Of a DNA stretch of 52,300 bases, positions 42,842 through 50,633 are shown piece after piece. Made by a program: the position numbers and the translations under genes. Source of the DNA: Pirellulales bacterium (GTDB lineage Bacteria > Planctomycetota > Planctomycetia > Pirellulales > JADZDJ01). The notes under the pieces are model-generated. The model saw only the letters and a list, made by a program, of their open reading frames with translations. It was not told where the DNA came from and searched no databases. Within the stretch, counting starts at the first letter, position 1; each line of letters opens with the position of its first letter. Location: NCBI GenBank assembly GCA_020851115.1, contig JADZDJ010000030.1:1-52300 (forward strand). Reading direction: 5' to 3'.

Positions 42842-44977
42842 TTATCGGTCGCCACCAAAGAACCGCTCGTCGATTTGTGTCTTGCCGCGCTCGATGTAGT
42901 ATTTCACCAGTTCGATGCGTAGTCGGCGAGGAGAGAGTTGGCGGTTTTCCCAGCGTGCGACGAGATCGGCGTGGCGGTTGCGGAGCTGTACGGTGGCCTC
43001 ACGTTGGGTCGCCGACGCCGAACGCTCGCCCACTTCTGTTGGAATACCTTCCACGATGGCCTCGCGCGCCCGAAGAAATTCCCCGCTAGCGCCATACGCG
43101 ATCTCGTCGAGCGTCTCGACCACTGCCGCCGCTTTTGCGGCCGATACTAGATCCATGTCTTCGCTGACGCTGGCCGAGGCCGCCAGAGCTTTGGCCAGCA
43201 ATGGGTTATTCTTCGACGCTTCGGCCATTTTCAGCCGCAGCGATTGAAACGCATTGGGCGATGGCTGCAATTCGTTATGTTCCATGCAGCCCGCAAAATG
43301 ATCGAAAATGGCTTCCTCCACTTCGCGGCCAGGGTCGTACATCGGTTCGCTGCGGCCGACCAGCTCGAGCTGCGGTGCGAAGAGCGCGCCGGTCGGCGAA
43401 ATAAACCCTTCGCCAAGCGACAAGCCGAGCTTGGCCAAGTTGCTTTTGGTTTGACCGGCCGCGGTAGTTTCGGTGATCGGAAAAAACGTCTCTCGCGGCC
43501 GACCGGTTTCCTGCGAGCACAGCAGTAAAAAGCCGGCACAATACGTGTGAATCTTTTCGCCCCGGAGTGATTTACCCTTAATCGCGGCTACGCGGTCGGT
43601 GCGAAAATTCAAATCAAACTCGGTCGGATTGCCAATGAACGCGGTTGCCGTCTCGCCCATGGTCTGGCCTACCGCAGAATCCGGATGTCGCAAAAAAACA
43701 TAATGAAGCGTGCGATCGAGAAACGCTTCGACATTCGTGGCTGGCATGGTCGTGCCGCGTTCTGGCAGATCGACGATCACCATCCGCTGCTTGCCGTCGC
43801 TGCCGGCTTCGAGGGCGACGACCCCGACATGGGTGAACAGGCCGGGAGATAAATCGGTGAATAAATTGTACGGTGAAGGGTTCCGCATCAGCAGCCAGTC
43901 GCCGGGACGGACTCGAAAGCTACCCAACCGAAAGCTATCGCCGTTGAGGCCATGTTTTATACGATTCGCTAGCCAACCCAGCAATTCGTCCAATCGCGCG
44001 CGTTCGGAGAGGCTCAAGCGAGTCGGGTCGATTTGCTGCAGGTGATCGCGCATTTGTTGAGCCGTGATCGCTGGTTTCGGCAACGATTCTGCTTGCCCCG
44101 GCCGCGGATCTTGCGGCAGGCCAAGTTCACGAATGGCCTGGGCCGCGGCAAGCGCCAATGGCGGAGGCGTTTTCGTATTGAGCAAAAACGAAGCAAGATC
44201 ATCTACGAATTCAAAGTTGCCGCTGGCGACGATGATCTTGATCAATTCGAACTTTTCCGGCGGTGTCAGCGGCGGAGGCGCATCGGGTACGCTAGCCGGC
44301 GGATCGAACAACGCCATCGACATTTCCTGAGCGCCAACACTACTTTGCTTTTCCGCCAGCAGATCGATCAAACGGCCGCGGAAGATAGGCTGTTGGGCCG
44401 TTCGAAAAGCGGCATCTTCAACCCCGTCGACCAACAAAAATCGTAATCGGCCAGAAAGATCGATCAGCGTGTTGGCGGTTTGCAAGTAGCGGCGCAGGGC
44501 TTCGTGTCGCTGCTGATCGGCGACGAGCGCGGAAAATTCAACGCGTAGCGCAAGGACATTATCGAGTTGCCGATCGATCGACGACTTGACGTCGTGCAAC
44601 CGACCGACAATGCCAATTTGTTCGTCGATCGTTCGGCCAGCGGCAATCTGGACCCACTGCGCTACCCAAGCTTCGACAGCACTGGCAGCCGTAACGAGAC
44701 CTTCGTGGTCGAATGAAGCATAGTAGGCGGCTGATTGCGGAACGAGTTCATGCAGCCGACGCAGCCACGGATCAAGGCCGTCGATTTCGGGGAGCGCGGT
44801 TTCCTGCGGCTTGTATTGCTGTTGCTGCTGAAACTGCTGCTTCTGCTCGAGCCGCTGCAACAACCGCTGAACCCGTGGCTGGGCCCAAGCTGTTGAAGGG
44901 GCCATGAGCCCAGTCGCCGCCAAGACAAACAACCACGGGGACGCGCAACGAAGGATCTTGATCACTGCCGTCGACAT
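42842..44977 (-). CDS. Secreted protein with permuted papain-like (YiiX/NlpC-P60 type) domain
   Basis: 711 residues. The signal peptide (WLFVLAATGLMAPSTAWA) is followed by a glutamine-rich run (about 40-57). A helical region of about 300 residues comes next, without assignable motif. At about 355-490 is a permuted papain-fold domain: RVRPGDWLLMRN, then FTHVGVVALEA with His383, and IHTYCAGFLLLCSQE with Cys480. These equal the order His-before-Cys of YiiX/YebB-like enzymes. The C-terminal 200 residues look helical. It may cleave peptide or amide bonds in the envelope. A GGGCTGGGG ribosome-binding site precedes ATG 44977. Confidence 0.7.
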   Translation of the reverse strand: MSTAVIKILRCASPWLFVLAATGLMAPSTAWAQPRVQRLLQRLEQKQQFQQQQQYKPQETALPEIDGLDPWLRRLHELVPQSAAYYASFDHEGLVTAASAVEAWVAQWVQIAAGRTIDEQIGIVGRLHDVKSSIDRQLDNVLALRVEFSALVADQQRHEALRRYLQTANTLIDLSGRLRFLLVDGVEDAAFRTAQQPIFRGRLIDLLAEKQSSVGAQEMSMALFDPPASVPDAPPPLTPPEKFELIKIIVASGNFEFVDDLASFLLNTKTPPPLALAAAQAIRELGLPQDPRPGQAESLPKPAITAQQMRDHLQQIDPTRLSLSERARLDELLGWLANRIKHGLNGDSFRLGSFRVRPGDWLLMRNPSPYNLFTDLSPGLFTHVGVVALEAGSDGKQRMVIVDLPERGTTMPATNVEAFLDRTLHYVFLRHPDSAVGQTMGETATAFIGNPTEFDLNFRTDRVAAIKGKSLRGEKIHTYCAGFLLLCSQETGRPRETFFPITETTAAGQTKSNLAKLGLSLGEGFISPTGALFAPQLELVGRSEPMYDPGREVEEAIFDHFAGCMEHNELQPSPNAFQSLRLKMAEASKNNPLLAKALAASASVSEDMDLVSAAKAAAVVETLDEIAYGASGEFLRAREAIVEGIPTEVGERSASATQREATVQLRNRHADLVARWENRQLSPRRLRIELVKYYIERGKTQIDERFFGGDR

Positions 44978-45119: not shown

Positions 45120-45152
45120 GAGAAGTTTCGGGTGTCCGTGAAATCTGTTGCC

Positions 45153-45920
45153 ATGCTTGCCAAACGCGTCATTCCTTGTCTCGATATCGACCGCGGCCGA
45201 GTGGTCAAAGGGACGAAGTTTTTGGGTTTGCGCGATGCTGGCGATCCGGTCGAAGTGGCCAAACGGTACGAAGCCGAGGGAGCCGATGAACTGGTGCTGC
45301 TCGACATTACGGCCAGCCACGAAGGACGGGACATCATGGCCGACGTGGTTCGGCAGGTGGCCGATGTCATTTTCATGCCCTTCACCGTCGGCGGTGGAAT
45401 TCGGACTTTGGACGATGCGGCTCGGCTGATTAAGGCGGGGGCCGAGAAAGTCAGCATTAATTCGGCAGCCGTCCGCACACCCGAGCTAATTACGCAGATT
45501 TCGCGAAAATTTGGCAGTTGCGCCACCGTCGTGAATATCGACCCCAAACGCGTCAAGCTAAAGGGCCGCGAAGTATTGGAAGTCCACATCCATGGGGGCC
45601 GCGTTCCGACTGGTAAAGAAGCCGTGGCCTGGGCCAGGGAAGTCGAGCGGCTTGGTGCCGGGGAAATTGTGCTGACCTCGATGGATGCAGACGGAACGCA
45701 AAGTGGTTATGATTTAGAGGTAACGGCCGCCGTCAGCCAGACGGTGTCGATTCCTGTGGTCGCCAGCGGCGGAGCAGGCCAACCGGAACACCTGGCCGAT
45801 GCCATCCAGCTCGGTTGCGCCGACGCCGCGCTTGCCGCTGGCATATTTCATTTTGGCCAATTTTCAATACGGCAAGTGAAAGAAGTGATGCGCAAGCGAG
45901 GCATCCACGTCCGATTGTGA
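45153..45920 (+). CDS. hisF: Imidazole glycerol phosphate synthase subunit HisF
   Basis: 255 residues forming a TIM barrel, the cyclase half of the enzyme that with HisH makes IGP and AICAR in histidine synthesis. The two catalytic aspartates are in [14 protein letters not shown] and VVNIDPKRV. Phosphate-binding motifs are TVGGGIRTL and [11 protein letters not shown], and [13 protein letters not shown] is conserved. ATG 45153 gives the usual start. A GTG at 45132 is less likely. The gene stands alone, without the other his genes, in this window. Confidence 0.96.
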
Positions 45921-46063: not shown

Positions 46064-47236
46064 ATGGCCGAACACGCGACTAATCATCATTTCAAGCTCA
46101 AGTCACCCACGGAAGACCGCTTTCTACAAAGGCGGCAAGACCTGGAGATCGACAAGCTTTTTCGCGCACTGGTGAAGCACGAAGGAAGCGACTTGCACCT
46201 GAAGGTCGATCGTCCGCCCTATGTGCGAGTCAAAGGATCGCTGCGTCCCTTGAGTCGCGATCCGATCGACGACGAAGAAATGGTGCGACTCATTTTTGCC
46301 ATGTTCGACGATCGGCGGCGGGCGATCTTCGACGAAACTGGCGGTTGCGACTTTGCCCACGTCGTTGATGTGGACGGCGTCAAATGGCGGTTCCGCGTCA
46401 ACGTTCTTCAGCAACTGGGGCATGTCGGCATGGTGGCTCGGCGCGTGAACAATTGGATTCCGGACTTCGCTGGCCTGAACCTGCCTCCGATCATGGAAGA
46501 CTTGTGCAAATTCGATCAAGGAATGATCTTGCTGGCAGGCGTCACGGGCTCTGGCAAGAGCACGACCATCGCGTCGATGCTCAACTATATCAACCACAAC
46601 TACCGCAAGCACATTCTGACGCTGGAAGATCCGATCGAATTCACGTTTACGGAAGACAAGTGCTTGATCAATCAGCGTGAGGTCGGCACGGATGTGATCG
46701 ACTTTTCCATTGGTATGAAGCATGCCGTCCGCGAAGACCCCGACGTGATGCTCGTGGGCGAGATGCGCGATCAAGAAACCTTTATGACGGCGATTCATGC
46801 CGCGGAAACCGGCCACTTGGTGTTTGGGACGATTCACGCCAGTTCTGCACCCAGCACGATCAGCCGCATTCTCGACCTGTTTCCGCAAGAAATGCACAAT
46901 GCGCTGCGCAGCGCGATCGCATTCAACATGCGGGGCATTGTCGCCCAGAAGCTGCTCCCGTCGATTAAGCCCGGTGTGGGGCGCGTGCCGACGGTCGAGA
47001 TCATGACGTTCAATCCGTCGGTTCGCAAACTCCTGCTGGAGGAGCGCGATGAAAAATTGGGCGACTTGATTCGCATGTCGTCCAAGGAAGGAATGCAAGA
47101 TTTTACGGCCAGCTTGAAGGACTTGGTGGAGCGCGATTTGGTGGATCGAAACGTGGCGCTCGAAGTGGCGCCCAACGTCGAGGCACTGAAAATGGCGCTC
47201 AAGGGCATCGAAGTCAAAACACCGGGAATTCTGTAA
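46064..47236 (+). CDS. Type IV pilus retraction-type ATPase, PilT/PilU-like
   Basis: 390 residues of the secretion ATPase superfamily. The N-domain has EGSDLHLKVDRPPYVRVKG, typical for PilT. Walker A is GVTGSGKST, the Asp box is LTLEDPIEF, Walker B is DPDVMLVGEMRDQETF, and the His box is ETGHLVFGTIHASS. All are intact, so it should be an active ATPase. It lacks the C-terminal AIRNLI-like motif that defines classic PilT, or it is altered. A role in pilus retraction or a related machine is inferred. It is 119 bases ahead of a degenerate PilB-like gene in the same direction. Confidence 0.9.
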   Translation: MAEHATNHHFKLKSPTEDRFLQRRQDLEIDKLFRALVKHEGSDLHLKVDRPPYVRVKGSLRPLSRDPIDDEEMVRLIFAMFDDRRRAIFDETGGCDFAHVVDVDGVKWRFRVNVLQQLGHVGMVARRVNNWIPDFAGLNLPPIMEDLCKFDQGMILLAGVTGSGKSTTIASMLNYINHNYRKHILTLEDPIEFTFTEDKCLINQREVGTDVIDFSIGMKHAVREDPDVMLVGEMRDQETFMTAIHAAETGHLVFGTIHASSAPSTISRILDLFPQEMHNALRSAIAFNMRGIVAQKLLPSIKPGVGRVPTVEIMTFNPSVRKLLLEERDEKLGDLIRMSSKEGMQDFTASLKDLVERDLVDRNVALEVAPNVEALKMALKGIEVKTPGIL

Positions 47237-47355: not shown

Positions 47356-49155
47356 ATGGCGCATTGGGGAAAATTGATTCTCGGGGGCGCGTTTTTGACT
47401 GCCAGCTTGATGGCGGTCGATGGCGCATGGGCACAAGTTCCACCCTCGCCAGACCAACCGGCGGCCGCGCCCGATCGCTGGCCGAACTTTTCACTGCCGC
47501 CGTCGCCAACGGCTTTCCCTCACGGCCCTGGGCACTATTTGAGTACGCTCAAATTGGTGTTGGTCATCGCCTTGTTCCTGCTGTGGGTCAAGACGACCGA
47601 TTGGGTCGGCCAGGATACGAATCGAACGAGCTTAAACTACGCGGTTTGGGATCCAGTCGTCTTCGCGCCATTCATGGTGGCGTTTCTGCTGCTATTGATG
47701 GTACCTTGGTTTATAGTTGGCTATCTGGTGATGGTGTTTGCCTGGGCGATTCCGCTGGGCACCTATGTGGTGTTGCGCAACAAGATCGTCCAGGAACATC
47801 AAAAAGTGATGACGCCTGGCCACTTGCGCCACGTTTTTGCACAGGCAATGGGAATGGTCGGCGTGAAAATCGCCAGCGAACGTCAACTAGCCCATCAAAA
47901 GGGCGCCCCTGTGCATTTCAAAGCCACTGCGCGCGGCGACAAGGACGGAGAGGCGAATTTACTCTTGGCCAGGCGGTCGCCGGGCTATGTACCGACGAAG
48001 GATCTGTTTGCTGAACTGATCGACCGAGTTGGCAATGCGGCGCTGTTGGAAGTCACCCCACAACATGTCGCCGTCCGCTATCAAATCGACGGCGTCTGGC
48101 ACAATGTTGAGCCGCGCGAGCGGGAACCTGGTGAAATGATGGTCGCCGTCCTGAAAACCATTGCCGGCGCGGATGCCAACGAGCGGGTCAAACGACAAGA
48201 AGGAAACTTCGCCGCCGAATACAACGGCGCGAAGTTTTTCGCCCGGTTGCAGAGCCAAACGGCCGACGGTGCCGAGCGAGTGTTGATCAATCTGAATCCC
48301 ACCAAAGTGCCGATTCAAACGCTCGAAGAACTGGGCATGAGGCCCAAGACGCAGGAAAAGCTCAAGGAGTTGCTGAGTCAGCCGCGGGGCTTTGTCATCT
48401 TTTCCGCGCCGCCGGGCGGTGGCTTGAGCAGTTTGTTCGACGGCGCGCTCAAGGCTTGCGACCGGTACATGCGCGACTTTGCCTCGATTGAGGATGTCGC
48501 CCACCGCGAACACGATATCGAAAACGTGCATGTCACCACCTACAACGCGGCTGCCGGCGAAACGCCGCTGCCAACATTGCAGAAAGTGATTCGCACCTAT
48601 CCGAACGTGCTCGTGATGCGGCACCTGCCCAATGCCGAGACGGTAAAGTTTCTTTGCGATCAAGTGCAAGAAGACCGCTTGATCATGACCGCCGTGCGGG
48701 CCAAAGACGCGGCCGAATCGGTGCTACGCGTGATGATGCTCAAAGCGCCGCCGAAGGATCTAGTCGGCGCGGCAACCGGCGCGGTTTGCGTCCGGTTGAT
48801 TCGCAAGCTGTGCGACCAGTGCAAAGAGCCATATCCGCCGCCGCAGGAATTGCTCAAGCAACTCGGCCTGCCCCCAGGAAAAGTACAGGCGTTTTTCCGG
48901 CCTCCATCGGAGCCTGATCCAAAAAAGCCGTGTCCGAACTGCCAGGGCATTGGCTACAAAGGCCGCACGGGCATGTTCGAACTGCTGATCGTGGATGACG
49001 CGGTGCGCGAAGTGCTGATGAAAAGCCCGAAGCTCGACCTCGTTCGTGCCGCGGCGCGCAAAGGAGGCATGAAGACGTTTCAGGATGAAGGCTTAGTGCT
49101 CGTTGTCAAAGGTGTCACATCGATGCCAGAATTGCAGCGGGCCTTGCAAGGGTAA
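47356..49155 (+). CDS. Membrane-anchored, catalytically degenerate PilB/GspE-like protein
   Basis: 599 residues. Membrane segments occupy about 7-27, 62-80 and 100-140, which is unusual for a secretion ATPase. From about 170 the rest follows a GspE/PilB fold: LFAELIDRVGNAALLEVTPQHVAVRYQIDG, then the core. The Walker A equivalent is SAPPGGGLSSL, where Leu357 replaces the catalytic Lys. The Walker B equivalent is VLVMRHLPNAET, with His in place of Glu. The His-box region is LIMTAVRAKDAAES, with Arg in place of His. The zinc ribbon is intact (CDQC, CPNCQGIGYKGRTGMFELL). It is thus a probable pseudo-ATPase acting as scaffold or regulator. A pilT-like gene precedes it and a CvpA-like gene follows. 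Confidence 0.8.
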   Translation: MAHWGKLILGGAFLTASLMAVDGAWAQVPPSPDQPAAAPDRWPNFSLPPSPTAFPHGPGHYLSTLKLVLVIALFLLWVKTTDWVGQDTNRTSLNYAVWDPVVFAPFMVAFLLLLMVPWFIVGYLVMVFAWAIPLGTYVVLRNKIVQEHQKVMTPGHLRHVFAQAMGMVGVKIASERQLAHQKGAPVHFKATARGDKDGEANLLLARRSPGYVPTKDLFAELIDRVGNAALLEVTPQHVAVRYQIDGVWHNVEPREREPGEMMVAVLKTIAGADANERVKRQEGNFAAEYNGAKFFARLQSQTADGAERVLINLNPTKVPIQTLEELGMRPKTQEKLKELLSQPRGFVIFSAPPGGGLSSLFDGALKACDRYMRDFASIEDVAHREHDIENVHVTTYNAAAGETPLPTLQKVIRTYPNVLVMRHLPNAETVKFLCDQVQEDRLIMTAVRAKDAAESVLRVMMLKAPPKDLVGAATGAVCVRLIRKLCDQCKEPYPPPQELLKQLGLPPGKVQAFFRPPSEPDPKKPCPNCQGIGYKGRTGMFELLIVDDAVREVLMKSPKLDLVRAAARKGGMKTFQDEGLVLVVKGVTSMPELQRALQG

Positions 49156-49241
49156 TTTTTGGTCGGTTGCCAGTGGTCAGTCGTCGGCGACAAGCACAAT
49201 GGATCTACAACGGACCACGGACATCTGACGAACAGCAAACC

Positions 49242-49841
49242 ATGTACATCACCATCGCCCTACTCGTCATTTTCTTCATTTGCCTCGGCATGATCTTTAA
49301 CGAGGGTCTTTGGGGGGCCGCCGTCATGTTCATCAACGTGCTGCTGTCGGCGATGATCGCGACAAACTTTTTTGAACCACTGGCGACGTGGGCGAATTCA
49401 CAAATGGGCAGCTATACCTACTTAATCGACTTTGTCTCCCTGTGGTTGATTTTTTGCGTGTCGCTGATTGTCTTGCGAATCCTGACCGACACGCTGTCGC
49501 GGTATCGAGTGCGGTTCAAAAAGCCTGTCGACATCGGCGGCGGCTTGTTTTTCGCAGCCTGGATTGGCTGGCTGATGATCCAGTTTTCGCTGTTCACCCT
49601 GCACACTTCGCCGCTGTCGAGAAATTTCTTTGGTGGCGATTTCCAGCCGGAACCAAATTCTGCAATGTTTTTTGGCCTCGCCCCCGACCGAAATTGGATG
49701 GCGTTTATGCACAAGATGGGTGAGGATGGCTCGCTGGGAACCGGAACGCCATTCGACAAGGAAGGAGACTTCATCTTGCGCTATGGTACGCGAAGAAAGA
49801 CCTTCGAGAAGCAACCGAATCTACGAGTCAATGCGCCGTAG
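49242..49841 (+). CDS. CvpA-family membrane protein
   Basis: 199 residues with four membrane helices: ITIALLVIFFICLGMIFNEG, LWGAAVMFINVLLSAMIA, YLIDFVSLWLIFCVSLIVLR and GGGLFFAAWIGWLMIQFSLF. The order and the polar ends match the CvpA/colicin V production family. CvpA proteins have roles in envelope homeostasis and biofilm, with no known mechanism. The C-terminal 60 residues are soluble. ATG 49242 is chosen because it starts at the first helix. It follows the PilB-like gene by 86 bases and the pair probably belongs to one transcript. Confidence 0.75.
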   Translation: MYITIALLVIFFICLGMIFNEGLWGAAVMFINVLLSAMIATNFFEPLATWANSQMGSYTYLIDFVSLWLIFCVSLIVLRILTDTLSRYRVRFKKPVDIGGGLFFAAWIGWLMIQFSLFTLHTSPLSRNFFGGDFQPEPNSAMFFGLAPDRNWMAFMHKMGEDGSLGTGTPFDKEGDFILRYGTRRKTFEKQPNLRVNAP

Positions 49842-49925
49842 GTTGCGCAAGCCGAGCGGAGCCTAAGTCGAGCATTGCCGAGCACGGCTGGTTTCGCTTG
49901 GTTCGCGGCACGAACCGATCACGCG

Positions 49926-50633
49926 ATGTCCACACCTCAGCTTGAAACGTCGAAGAATCGCGCCGCAAGCGACGGGACGATTCAATACCGCGCCGTGAGC
50001 GGCTTGGCGATTTTAGCCTTGGCGCTAGGTATTGCCTCGGCTGCGGCAATGGTGGGGCCGGTGCTGTGGCTTGTGCCGCTATTGGCCATCATTACCGCGC
50101 TGGTCGCGATGCGGCGGATCAGCGCGTCGGAAGAATTGACCGGCTGGTACATCGCCTTGCTCGGCTTGCTGCTGGCGATTCTGTTTGGCGTCGCTGCGCC
50201 AGCCCGCACCCTCAGCCGGCAATATTGGCTGGCCTGCCGGGCCGAGGCGTTTAGCGGCAAGTTCCTCGAATTCTTGCAGCACGATAAACCCTATGCTGCG
50301 CATCAGCTCCGCGAGCGATCGGGAGTTCGCAAGCCGCTGAACGAGGCACTGCCCGAGGCGTACAACAACGACCCCGAATCGCAAAAGAGCTTCGCGAAGT
50401 TCGTGGCGGAAGAGCCCATGAAATCGCTGCTGGAAGCCGGCCAGAAATCGGTCATCATGCGAACTTCAACCGAATCGCTTGGGCGGGACGATCAACACGA
50501 TCTGTGCGTTGTTCACTACCAAATCACCGCGCCAGGTCGCAAGCCGATATCGGTGATGATCGCTGTCAAACGCAGCCTCGAATATTCGACCGGGCGCGAA
50601 ACTTGGCAGATCGAGAACGTGGCCGTGGAATAA
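49926..50633 (+). CDS. DUF4190-like membrane protein
   Basis: About 235 residues. Two or three membrane helices (LAILALALGIASAAAMVGP, LVPLLAIITALVAMRRIS, IALLGLLLAILFGVAAP) look like the DUF4190 region. A soluble C-terminal domain of about 130 residues ends in SVMIAVKRSLEYSTGRETWQIENVAVE. I do not recognise the soluble part. The gene lies 84 bases after the CvpA-like gene in the same direction, and its stop is one base before that of the convergent SDR gene. Function unknown. Confidence 0.65.
   Translation: MSTPQLETSKNRAASDGTIQYRAVSGLAILALALGIASAAAMVGPVLWLVPLLAIITALVAMRRISASEELTGWYIALLGLLLAILFGVAAPARTLSRQYWLACRAEAFSGKFLEFLQHDKPYAAHQLRERSGVRKPLNEALPEAYNNDPESQKSFAKFVAEEPMKSLLEAGQKSVIMRTSTESLGRDDQHDLCVVHYQITAPGRKPISVMIAVKRSLEYSTGRETWQIENVAVE

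Follow-up and report, generated by a model that had tools for sequence, protein, structure and literature searches.

The gene at 47356-49155 of the window (the whole 52,300-nucleotide stretch of Pirellulales DNA analysed here) encodes a membrane-anchored pseudo-PilB. On balance, this protein appears to be a ring subunit of the PilB/GspE type that is anchored in the inner membrane and catalytically dead, and that most likely docks the neighbouring PilT onto the membrane. Catalytic residues are gone in every relative examined from the order and selection on the gene is strong. Thus, of the two roles offered by an earlier sequence-only reading, scaffold or regulator, that of a scaffold for the live PilT motor is the probable one.

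Identity and anatomy of the protein

The open reading frame on the + strand is uninterrupted and specifies 599 residues. A profile search for T2SSE/GspE, suggested in the sequence-only reading, was carried out and placed the Pfam domain T2SSE (PF00437) at residues 230-595 (score 138 bits, cut-off 24.9). The best PDB relatives in a sequence search were PilF/PilB and GspE, and the identity of PilB, PilF and GspE to the core is 22-26%. The curated NCBIfam cut-offs were not reached (TIGR02533, 160 vs 630 bits; TIGR02538, 139 vs 676 bits). The AlphaFold2 model, built from 34 sequences, has a pLDDT of 87.1. It was aligned to PilB (5zfr) by VIA-align with a Z of 41.0 and an rmsd of 2.5 over 379 residues, and Foldseek gave a TMt of 0.90.

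In the model, a signal-peptide-like helix (residues 8-26) is followed by a disordered Pro-rich linker, three membrane helices, and a second linker that leads from helix 3 to a full PilB-type core. The three N-terminal membrane segments described earlier are thus present, but the signal-peptide-like helix has to be added to them. A similar start is seen in relatives from the order and the class, and is absent from the Phycisphaerae-like ones. Given the three helices left after removal of the signal peptide, the core would be cytosolic. The three-helix anchor corresponds to no known domain in Pfam and has no PDB match by sequence. Nor was it matched in any of 25 genomes from other phyla, a set without a positive control and hence a weak negative.

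The core fold, the tetracysteine zinc ribbon and the C-terminal GRxGxFE block are common to pseudo-PilB and PilB/PilF/GspE (PF00437). The four cysteines (C486, C489, C526, C529) are invariant across the order and the C-terminal GRTGMFELL block is present, as had been noted. Pseudo-PilB differs from PilB/PilF/GspE in the absence of the Walker A Lys, the catalytic Glu, the HIS-box His and the second arginine finger. It also lacks the N1/MshEN domain, and has a signal peptide and the three-helix anchor instead. The coordinates of these features and of the neighbouring genes are given in Table 1. A scan for promoters and terminators returned signals no commoner than chance.

Table 1. Features of the pseudo-PilB gene and its surroundings, in window coordinates.
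Feature	Coordinates	Strand	Basis or remark
hisF, conserved upstream flank	45132..45920	+	PF00977, 270 bits
Intact PilT, 390 aa	46064..47236	+	TIGR01420, 391 bits vs cut-off 319
Membrane-anchored pseudo-PilB, 599 aa	47356..49155	+	ORF; PF00437, 138 bits; orthologues order-wide
Signal-peptide-like segment, residues 1-26, end AWA|Q	47356..47433	+	helix 8-26 in model
Membrane helix 1, residues 64-91	47545..47628	+	model, hydropathy; conserved columns W77, W83, D87
Membrane helix 2, residues 95-113	47638..47694	+	model, hydropathy; W98 conserved
Membrane helix 3, residues 119-144	47710..47787	+	model, hydropathy; Y137, R141, N142 conserved
PilB/GspE-type core, residues 207-599	47974..49152	+	VIA-align to 5zfr, Foldseek
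N312 at second arginine-finger position	48289..48291	+	alignment
Degenerate Walker A, residues 350-359, SAPPGGGLSS	48403..48432	+	Leu357 (48424-48426) at Lys position
ASP-box Glu379, retained	48490..48492	+	E in 36/42 order members
His423 at catalytic Glu position	48622..48624	+	order: D25 E8 R4 S2 H1 T1 K1
Arg448 at HIS-box His	48697..48699	+	His in 0/42 order members
Zinc-ribbon region with C486, C489, C526, C529	48811..48942	+	cysteines are invariant columns
CvpA-family membrane protein	49242..49841	+	PF02674, 42 bits vs cut-off 29.3
Membrane protein, weak DUF4190-like stretch, often fourth gene	49875..50633	+	20 bits, below cut-off 35

A conserved gene unit with pilT and cvpA

Across the order, pilT recurs immediately upstream and cvpA immediately downstream of pseudo-PilB, and the gene order pilT - anchored PilB - cvpA is conserved across Planctomycetota. 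The Walker A, ASP box, Walker B and HIS box were intact in all 38 PilT neighbours examined. The downstream gene passes the family cut-off for CvpA (PF02674); its reading frame opens at 49167 (TTG) and the likely start is the ATG at 49242. We know of no PilT or PilB partner of E. coli CvpA. The sequence-only reading had asked for co-occurrence with pilT, the CvpA gene and the membrane gene beyond it. This was seen for pilT and for cvpA (downstream in 37/40 loci), but the DUF4190-like membrane gene was present in only 12/40. hisF lies upstream in 22/40 loci and is probably a mere neighbour of the unit. In the loci compared, the only conserved neighbours were hisF, pilT, cvpA, the DUF4190-like gene and SDR genes.

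A profile of the anchor detected the domain in 55 of the 195 near-complete genomes searched in the phylum; this PilT type was found in all 55. By coordinates, pilT is adjacent in 6/6 genomes of the order, in 30/30 genomes of other classes and in 5/19 genomes of family f5, where the ATPase is intact; in the remaining f5 genomes pilT lies about 10 kb away or elsewhere. Among the anchor-bearing genomes, all 33 dead copies checked adjoin pilT, and the contrast between dead, adjacent copies and intact, non-adjacent ones comes largely from f5, is confounded with ancestry and is not phylogenetically independent. In more distant lineages PilT occurs alone or beside an intact PilB. Over 17 taxa, and measured against a short and noisy hisF control tree, distances of PilT and its dead partner correlate beyond hisF (partial 0.68, p 0.001), as do those of pseudo-PilB and CvpA (partial 0.66, p 0.002).

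The sequence-only reading knew of no described planctomycete system of this kind. This agrees with our search, in which no description of the pilT - pseudo-PilB - cvpA unit was found in the open-access literature, which leaves out most subscription journals. The unit hints at an envelope machine that is not yet characterised, in a phylum whose cell biology is unusual; it may instead be an accessory of another pilus system of the genome.

Elsewhere in the genome there are a canonical pilus cluster with two PilB and one PilT, a T2SS-like cluster and Tad genes. Pilus extension is thus independent of the pseudo-PilB gene. A second, intact copy of the anchored type was not found in the same genome, the other PilB matches being canonical. 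The platform gene PilC/GspF (T2SSF) is absent from the window contig, so that the unit is linked to pili by homology only. It is conceivable that PilT, the anchored PilB and CvpA make up an envelope machine of their own, for transport or cell-wall functions, which borrowed pilus motor parts and is no pilus device; we hold this only tentatively. The missing T2SSF gene would fit such a machine, as would the fact that no conserved pilus gene was seen beside the operon in the loci examined and that the canonical T4P, T2SS-like and Tad clusters have ATPases of their own. However, the PilT is clearly a member of the PilT/PilU family, and orphan PilC/GspF-like genes of the genome could serve the unit in trans.

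Three T2SSF (PilC/GspF-like) loci, on contigs C99, C24 and C164 (L226-L228), have no T2SSE match on the same contig, and are possible platforms for the PilT/pseudo-PilB pair. The PilT type encoded at 46064-47236 carries a conserved C-terminal LxMxxxGI tail, which is also found in lineages without an anchored partner (L254-L273). On the - strand of the window, a 711-residue protein (42842-44977) has no Pfam match; by our own reading, its RPGDWLLMRN...THVGVV resembles a YiiX/NlpC-type papain-like motif.

Proposed docking of PilT on a dead ring

In the proposed mechanism, the three helices, alongside the CvpA-like membrane protein, would hold pseudo-PilB in the membrane. The core would face the cytosol as a static or ATP-insensitive ring, and PilT would hydrolyse ATP on the platform formed by this ring. 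The origin of pseudo-PilB is a membrane-anchored, ATP-hydrolysing PilB, of a kind still present in some sister lineages. We infer that the protein forms hexamers and contacts PilT and CvpA, and that PilT supplies the work. The cargo moved may be a pilin, another protein or an envelope component.

A precedent for the docking ring comes from V. cholerae, where a Walker A mutant of PilT still supports PilU-powered retraction; each of the two proteins forms a homohexamer of its own, and these homohexamers interact (PMC6821130). In that pair, two rings of the superfamily act together and a Walker A-dead ring can still be needed as the partner of a live one (PMC6821130). V. cholerae PilT and PilU are both natural ATPases of the PilT clade and are soluble, whereas pseudo-PilB is of the PilB clade, naturally dead and membrane-anchored. 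No naturally dead member of the PilT/VirB11-like motor superfamily was found in the open-access literature searched, and such proteins seem not to have been described so far. The soluble paralogues of f5, in which a PilB core has lost its catalytic residues without an adjacent pilT, count against the docking of PilT as the role of such dead cores.

A dead protein could also act as a regulatory subunit, mixing into or capping the hexamers of PilT or of canonical PilB and thereby slowing or gating them. We consider this rather unlikely. The core fold is compatible with a superfamily hexamer, the genome has intact canonical PilB/GspE genes at other sites, and the activity of native PilT and PilU is inhibited when their Walker A mutants are overexpressed (PMC6821130). 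On the other hand, sequence identity to PilT is low, and the separate homohexamers reported for PilT and PilU (PMC6821130) do not favour mixing; the three-helix anchor and the fixed position between pilT and cvpA would be needless for a regulator. The docking ring is not exclusive with a regulatory role, with residual ATPase activity or with an envelope machine apart from pili.

Loss of catalytic residues throughout the order

Catalytic residues were placed by alignment with the three canonical PilB/GspE proteins of the genome and with orthologues. The order was represented by 42 proteins of the pseudo-PilB locus type, from 34 genera and 19 families. The Walker A Lys is absent from all of them. 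The sequence-only reading had singled out L357 for a test of conservation; what is conserved is the absence of Lys (42/42), while Leu itself is found in 34 proteins and is replaced by Phe (3), Met (3) or Tyr (2) in the others. The degenerate P-loop is itself conserved in the order (P353 in 37/38, G356 in 38/38, a hydrophobic residue at 357), and the Ser/Thr358 after it is kept. A bulky hydrophobic residue always replaces Lys and P353 and G356 are near-invariant, a pattern that drift would not produce.

Three catalytic motifs had been reported as lost together. This holds for the window protein, but in the order only the losses of the Walker A Lys and the HIS-box His are universal. The change at His423 had been correctly seen and was called that of the Walker B acidic residue; catalytic Glu is the better name for this position. 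The catalytic Glu of PilT-like ATPases is the residue that follows the atypical Walker B, and their ASP-box Glu holds Mg (PMC5424180). A further loss had been missed, that of the second arginine finger, which is Asn312 in the window protein. Arg is found at this position in 21/21 intact class relatives and in 4/42 order members. The first arginine finger is kept (R297).

Pseudo-PilB is thus presumably without ATPase activity. Nucleotide may still be bound, as E379, G356 and Ser/Thr358 remain. An unusual working or nucleotide-sensing ATPase, in which Mg would be held by Glu379, hydrolysis would be carried out by the Asp423 of most relatives and Lys would be dispensable, seems quite improbable. 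It would account for the retention of the ASP-box Glu, of Asp or Glu at the catalytic position in 33/42 proteins and of the Ser/Thr after the P-loop. It does not sit well with the loss of Lys in all members, the loss of both HIS-box histidines and of the second arginine finger in nearly all, the His at 423 in the window protein, or the strongly relaxed constraint on the core.

Selection on the anchor and the zinc ribbon

A search for orthologues covered 392 genomes from the phylum, together with 40 close relatives, and recovered them throughout the order Pirellulales. In five pairs of dead copies with at least 80% identity, dN/dS was 0.05-0.125; in intact relatives it was 0.02-0.07. These values, together with the Z of 41 to PilB, bear out the earlier statement that the fold is kept by selection. 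Columns that are invariant in intact relatives were then followed in the dead ones. They are still conserved in 9/82 cases in the catalytic core, in 7/12 in the anchor and in 24/49 in the zinc/C-terminal part. Judged from these columns, constraint is gone from the catalytic core and retained on the anchor and the zinc ribbon.

The broken catalytic motifs could by themselves be taken for a decaying gene or an assembly error, but the open frame in 34 genera, a dN/dS far below 1, the invariant zinc cysteines and the confident fold rule this out for practical purposes. As the same losses recur in those genera, a frameshift or a mutant copy, which the sequence-only reading had left as a possible cause, is excluded.

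Relatives with and without catalysis

The same anchor, together with all catalytic residues, is found in families f5 and f6, which belong to the same class (21/21), and in f36, f50 and f101 of the phylum (4/4). Homologues with the Walker A Lys and the catalytic Glu had been named beforehand as a sign that the window copy is just a mutant. Within the order none has the Lys (0/42), but these sister families keep both residues. The pseudo-PilB family thus descends from a working ATPase and is not a separate dead lineage. The intact anchored proteins share the anchor and the zinc ribbon with pseudo-PilB and, in part, have pilT upstream and cvpA downstream like it; they differ in their complete catalytic residues and, in f5, in a pilT that is often elsewhere. 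Because the family has both live and dead forms that share their anchor and their gene neighbours, it allows a direct test of which part of such motors acts as mechanical platform and which as engine.

In the Phycisphaerae-like families f8, f52, f61, f68, f74, f79, f90 and f97, Lys is lost in 27/27 proteins checked and is replaced by R, L, V, Q, T or G. The single protein of f95 keeps Lys and has lost Glu and His. Dead Phycisphaerae-like copies always adjoin an intact pilT.

On the PilT tree, at least three changes between an intact and a dead partner are required. The ATPase-core tree, computed after masking of the motif columns, places the dead copies together in one group (100/99), for which two changes suffice. 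This tree is a weaker witness than the PilT tree, owing to long branches, and a forced clade of Pirellulales with the intact class copies was not rejected on it (AU p 0.35). The anchor tree is too short to tell single from repeated loss. Going by the PilT tree, catalysis was probably lost repeatedly, which is the likelier course given the descent of the fold from ATPases that worked. The pattern may instead go back to an early duplication followed by differential loss.

A broader and more speculative proposal is a planctomycete membrane machine found across the phylum and distinct from both secretion systems and type IV pili. Its live PilT ring would act on a naturally dead, membrane-anchored PilB ring that has a CvpA-like partner, and the PilB ring would have given up catalysis several times independently. 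We regard it as possible rather than probable.

Further variants of these proteins were seen among the relatives. In four f8 genomes (L234-L237), some of the zinc cysteines are also lost (LAKSSR ... CPESGG) and decay is further advanced. Two members of the order, G402 (L112) and G274 (L119), have a dead copy beside pilT that is entirely without the membrane anchor. The f5 genomes (L105-L111, e.g. G321:C1:1742284-1743519) encode, besides the intact anchored protein, a second, soluble and degenerate PilB-core protein of about 440 aa. This paralogue has lost even the ASP-box Glu and retains the second arginine finger; none of the genes near it is conserved in more than 4/7 loci. Genomes G400 and G414 of family f108 (L113, L114, L115) contain extra, catalytically complete copies with a different hydrophobic N-terminus, and also carry a dead copy beside hisF-pilT.
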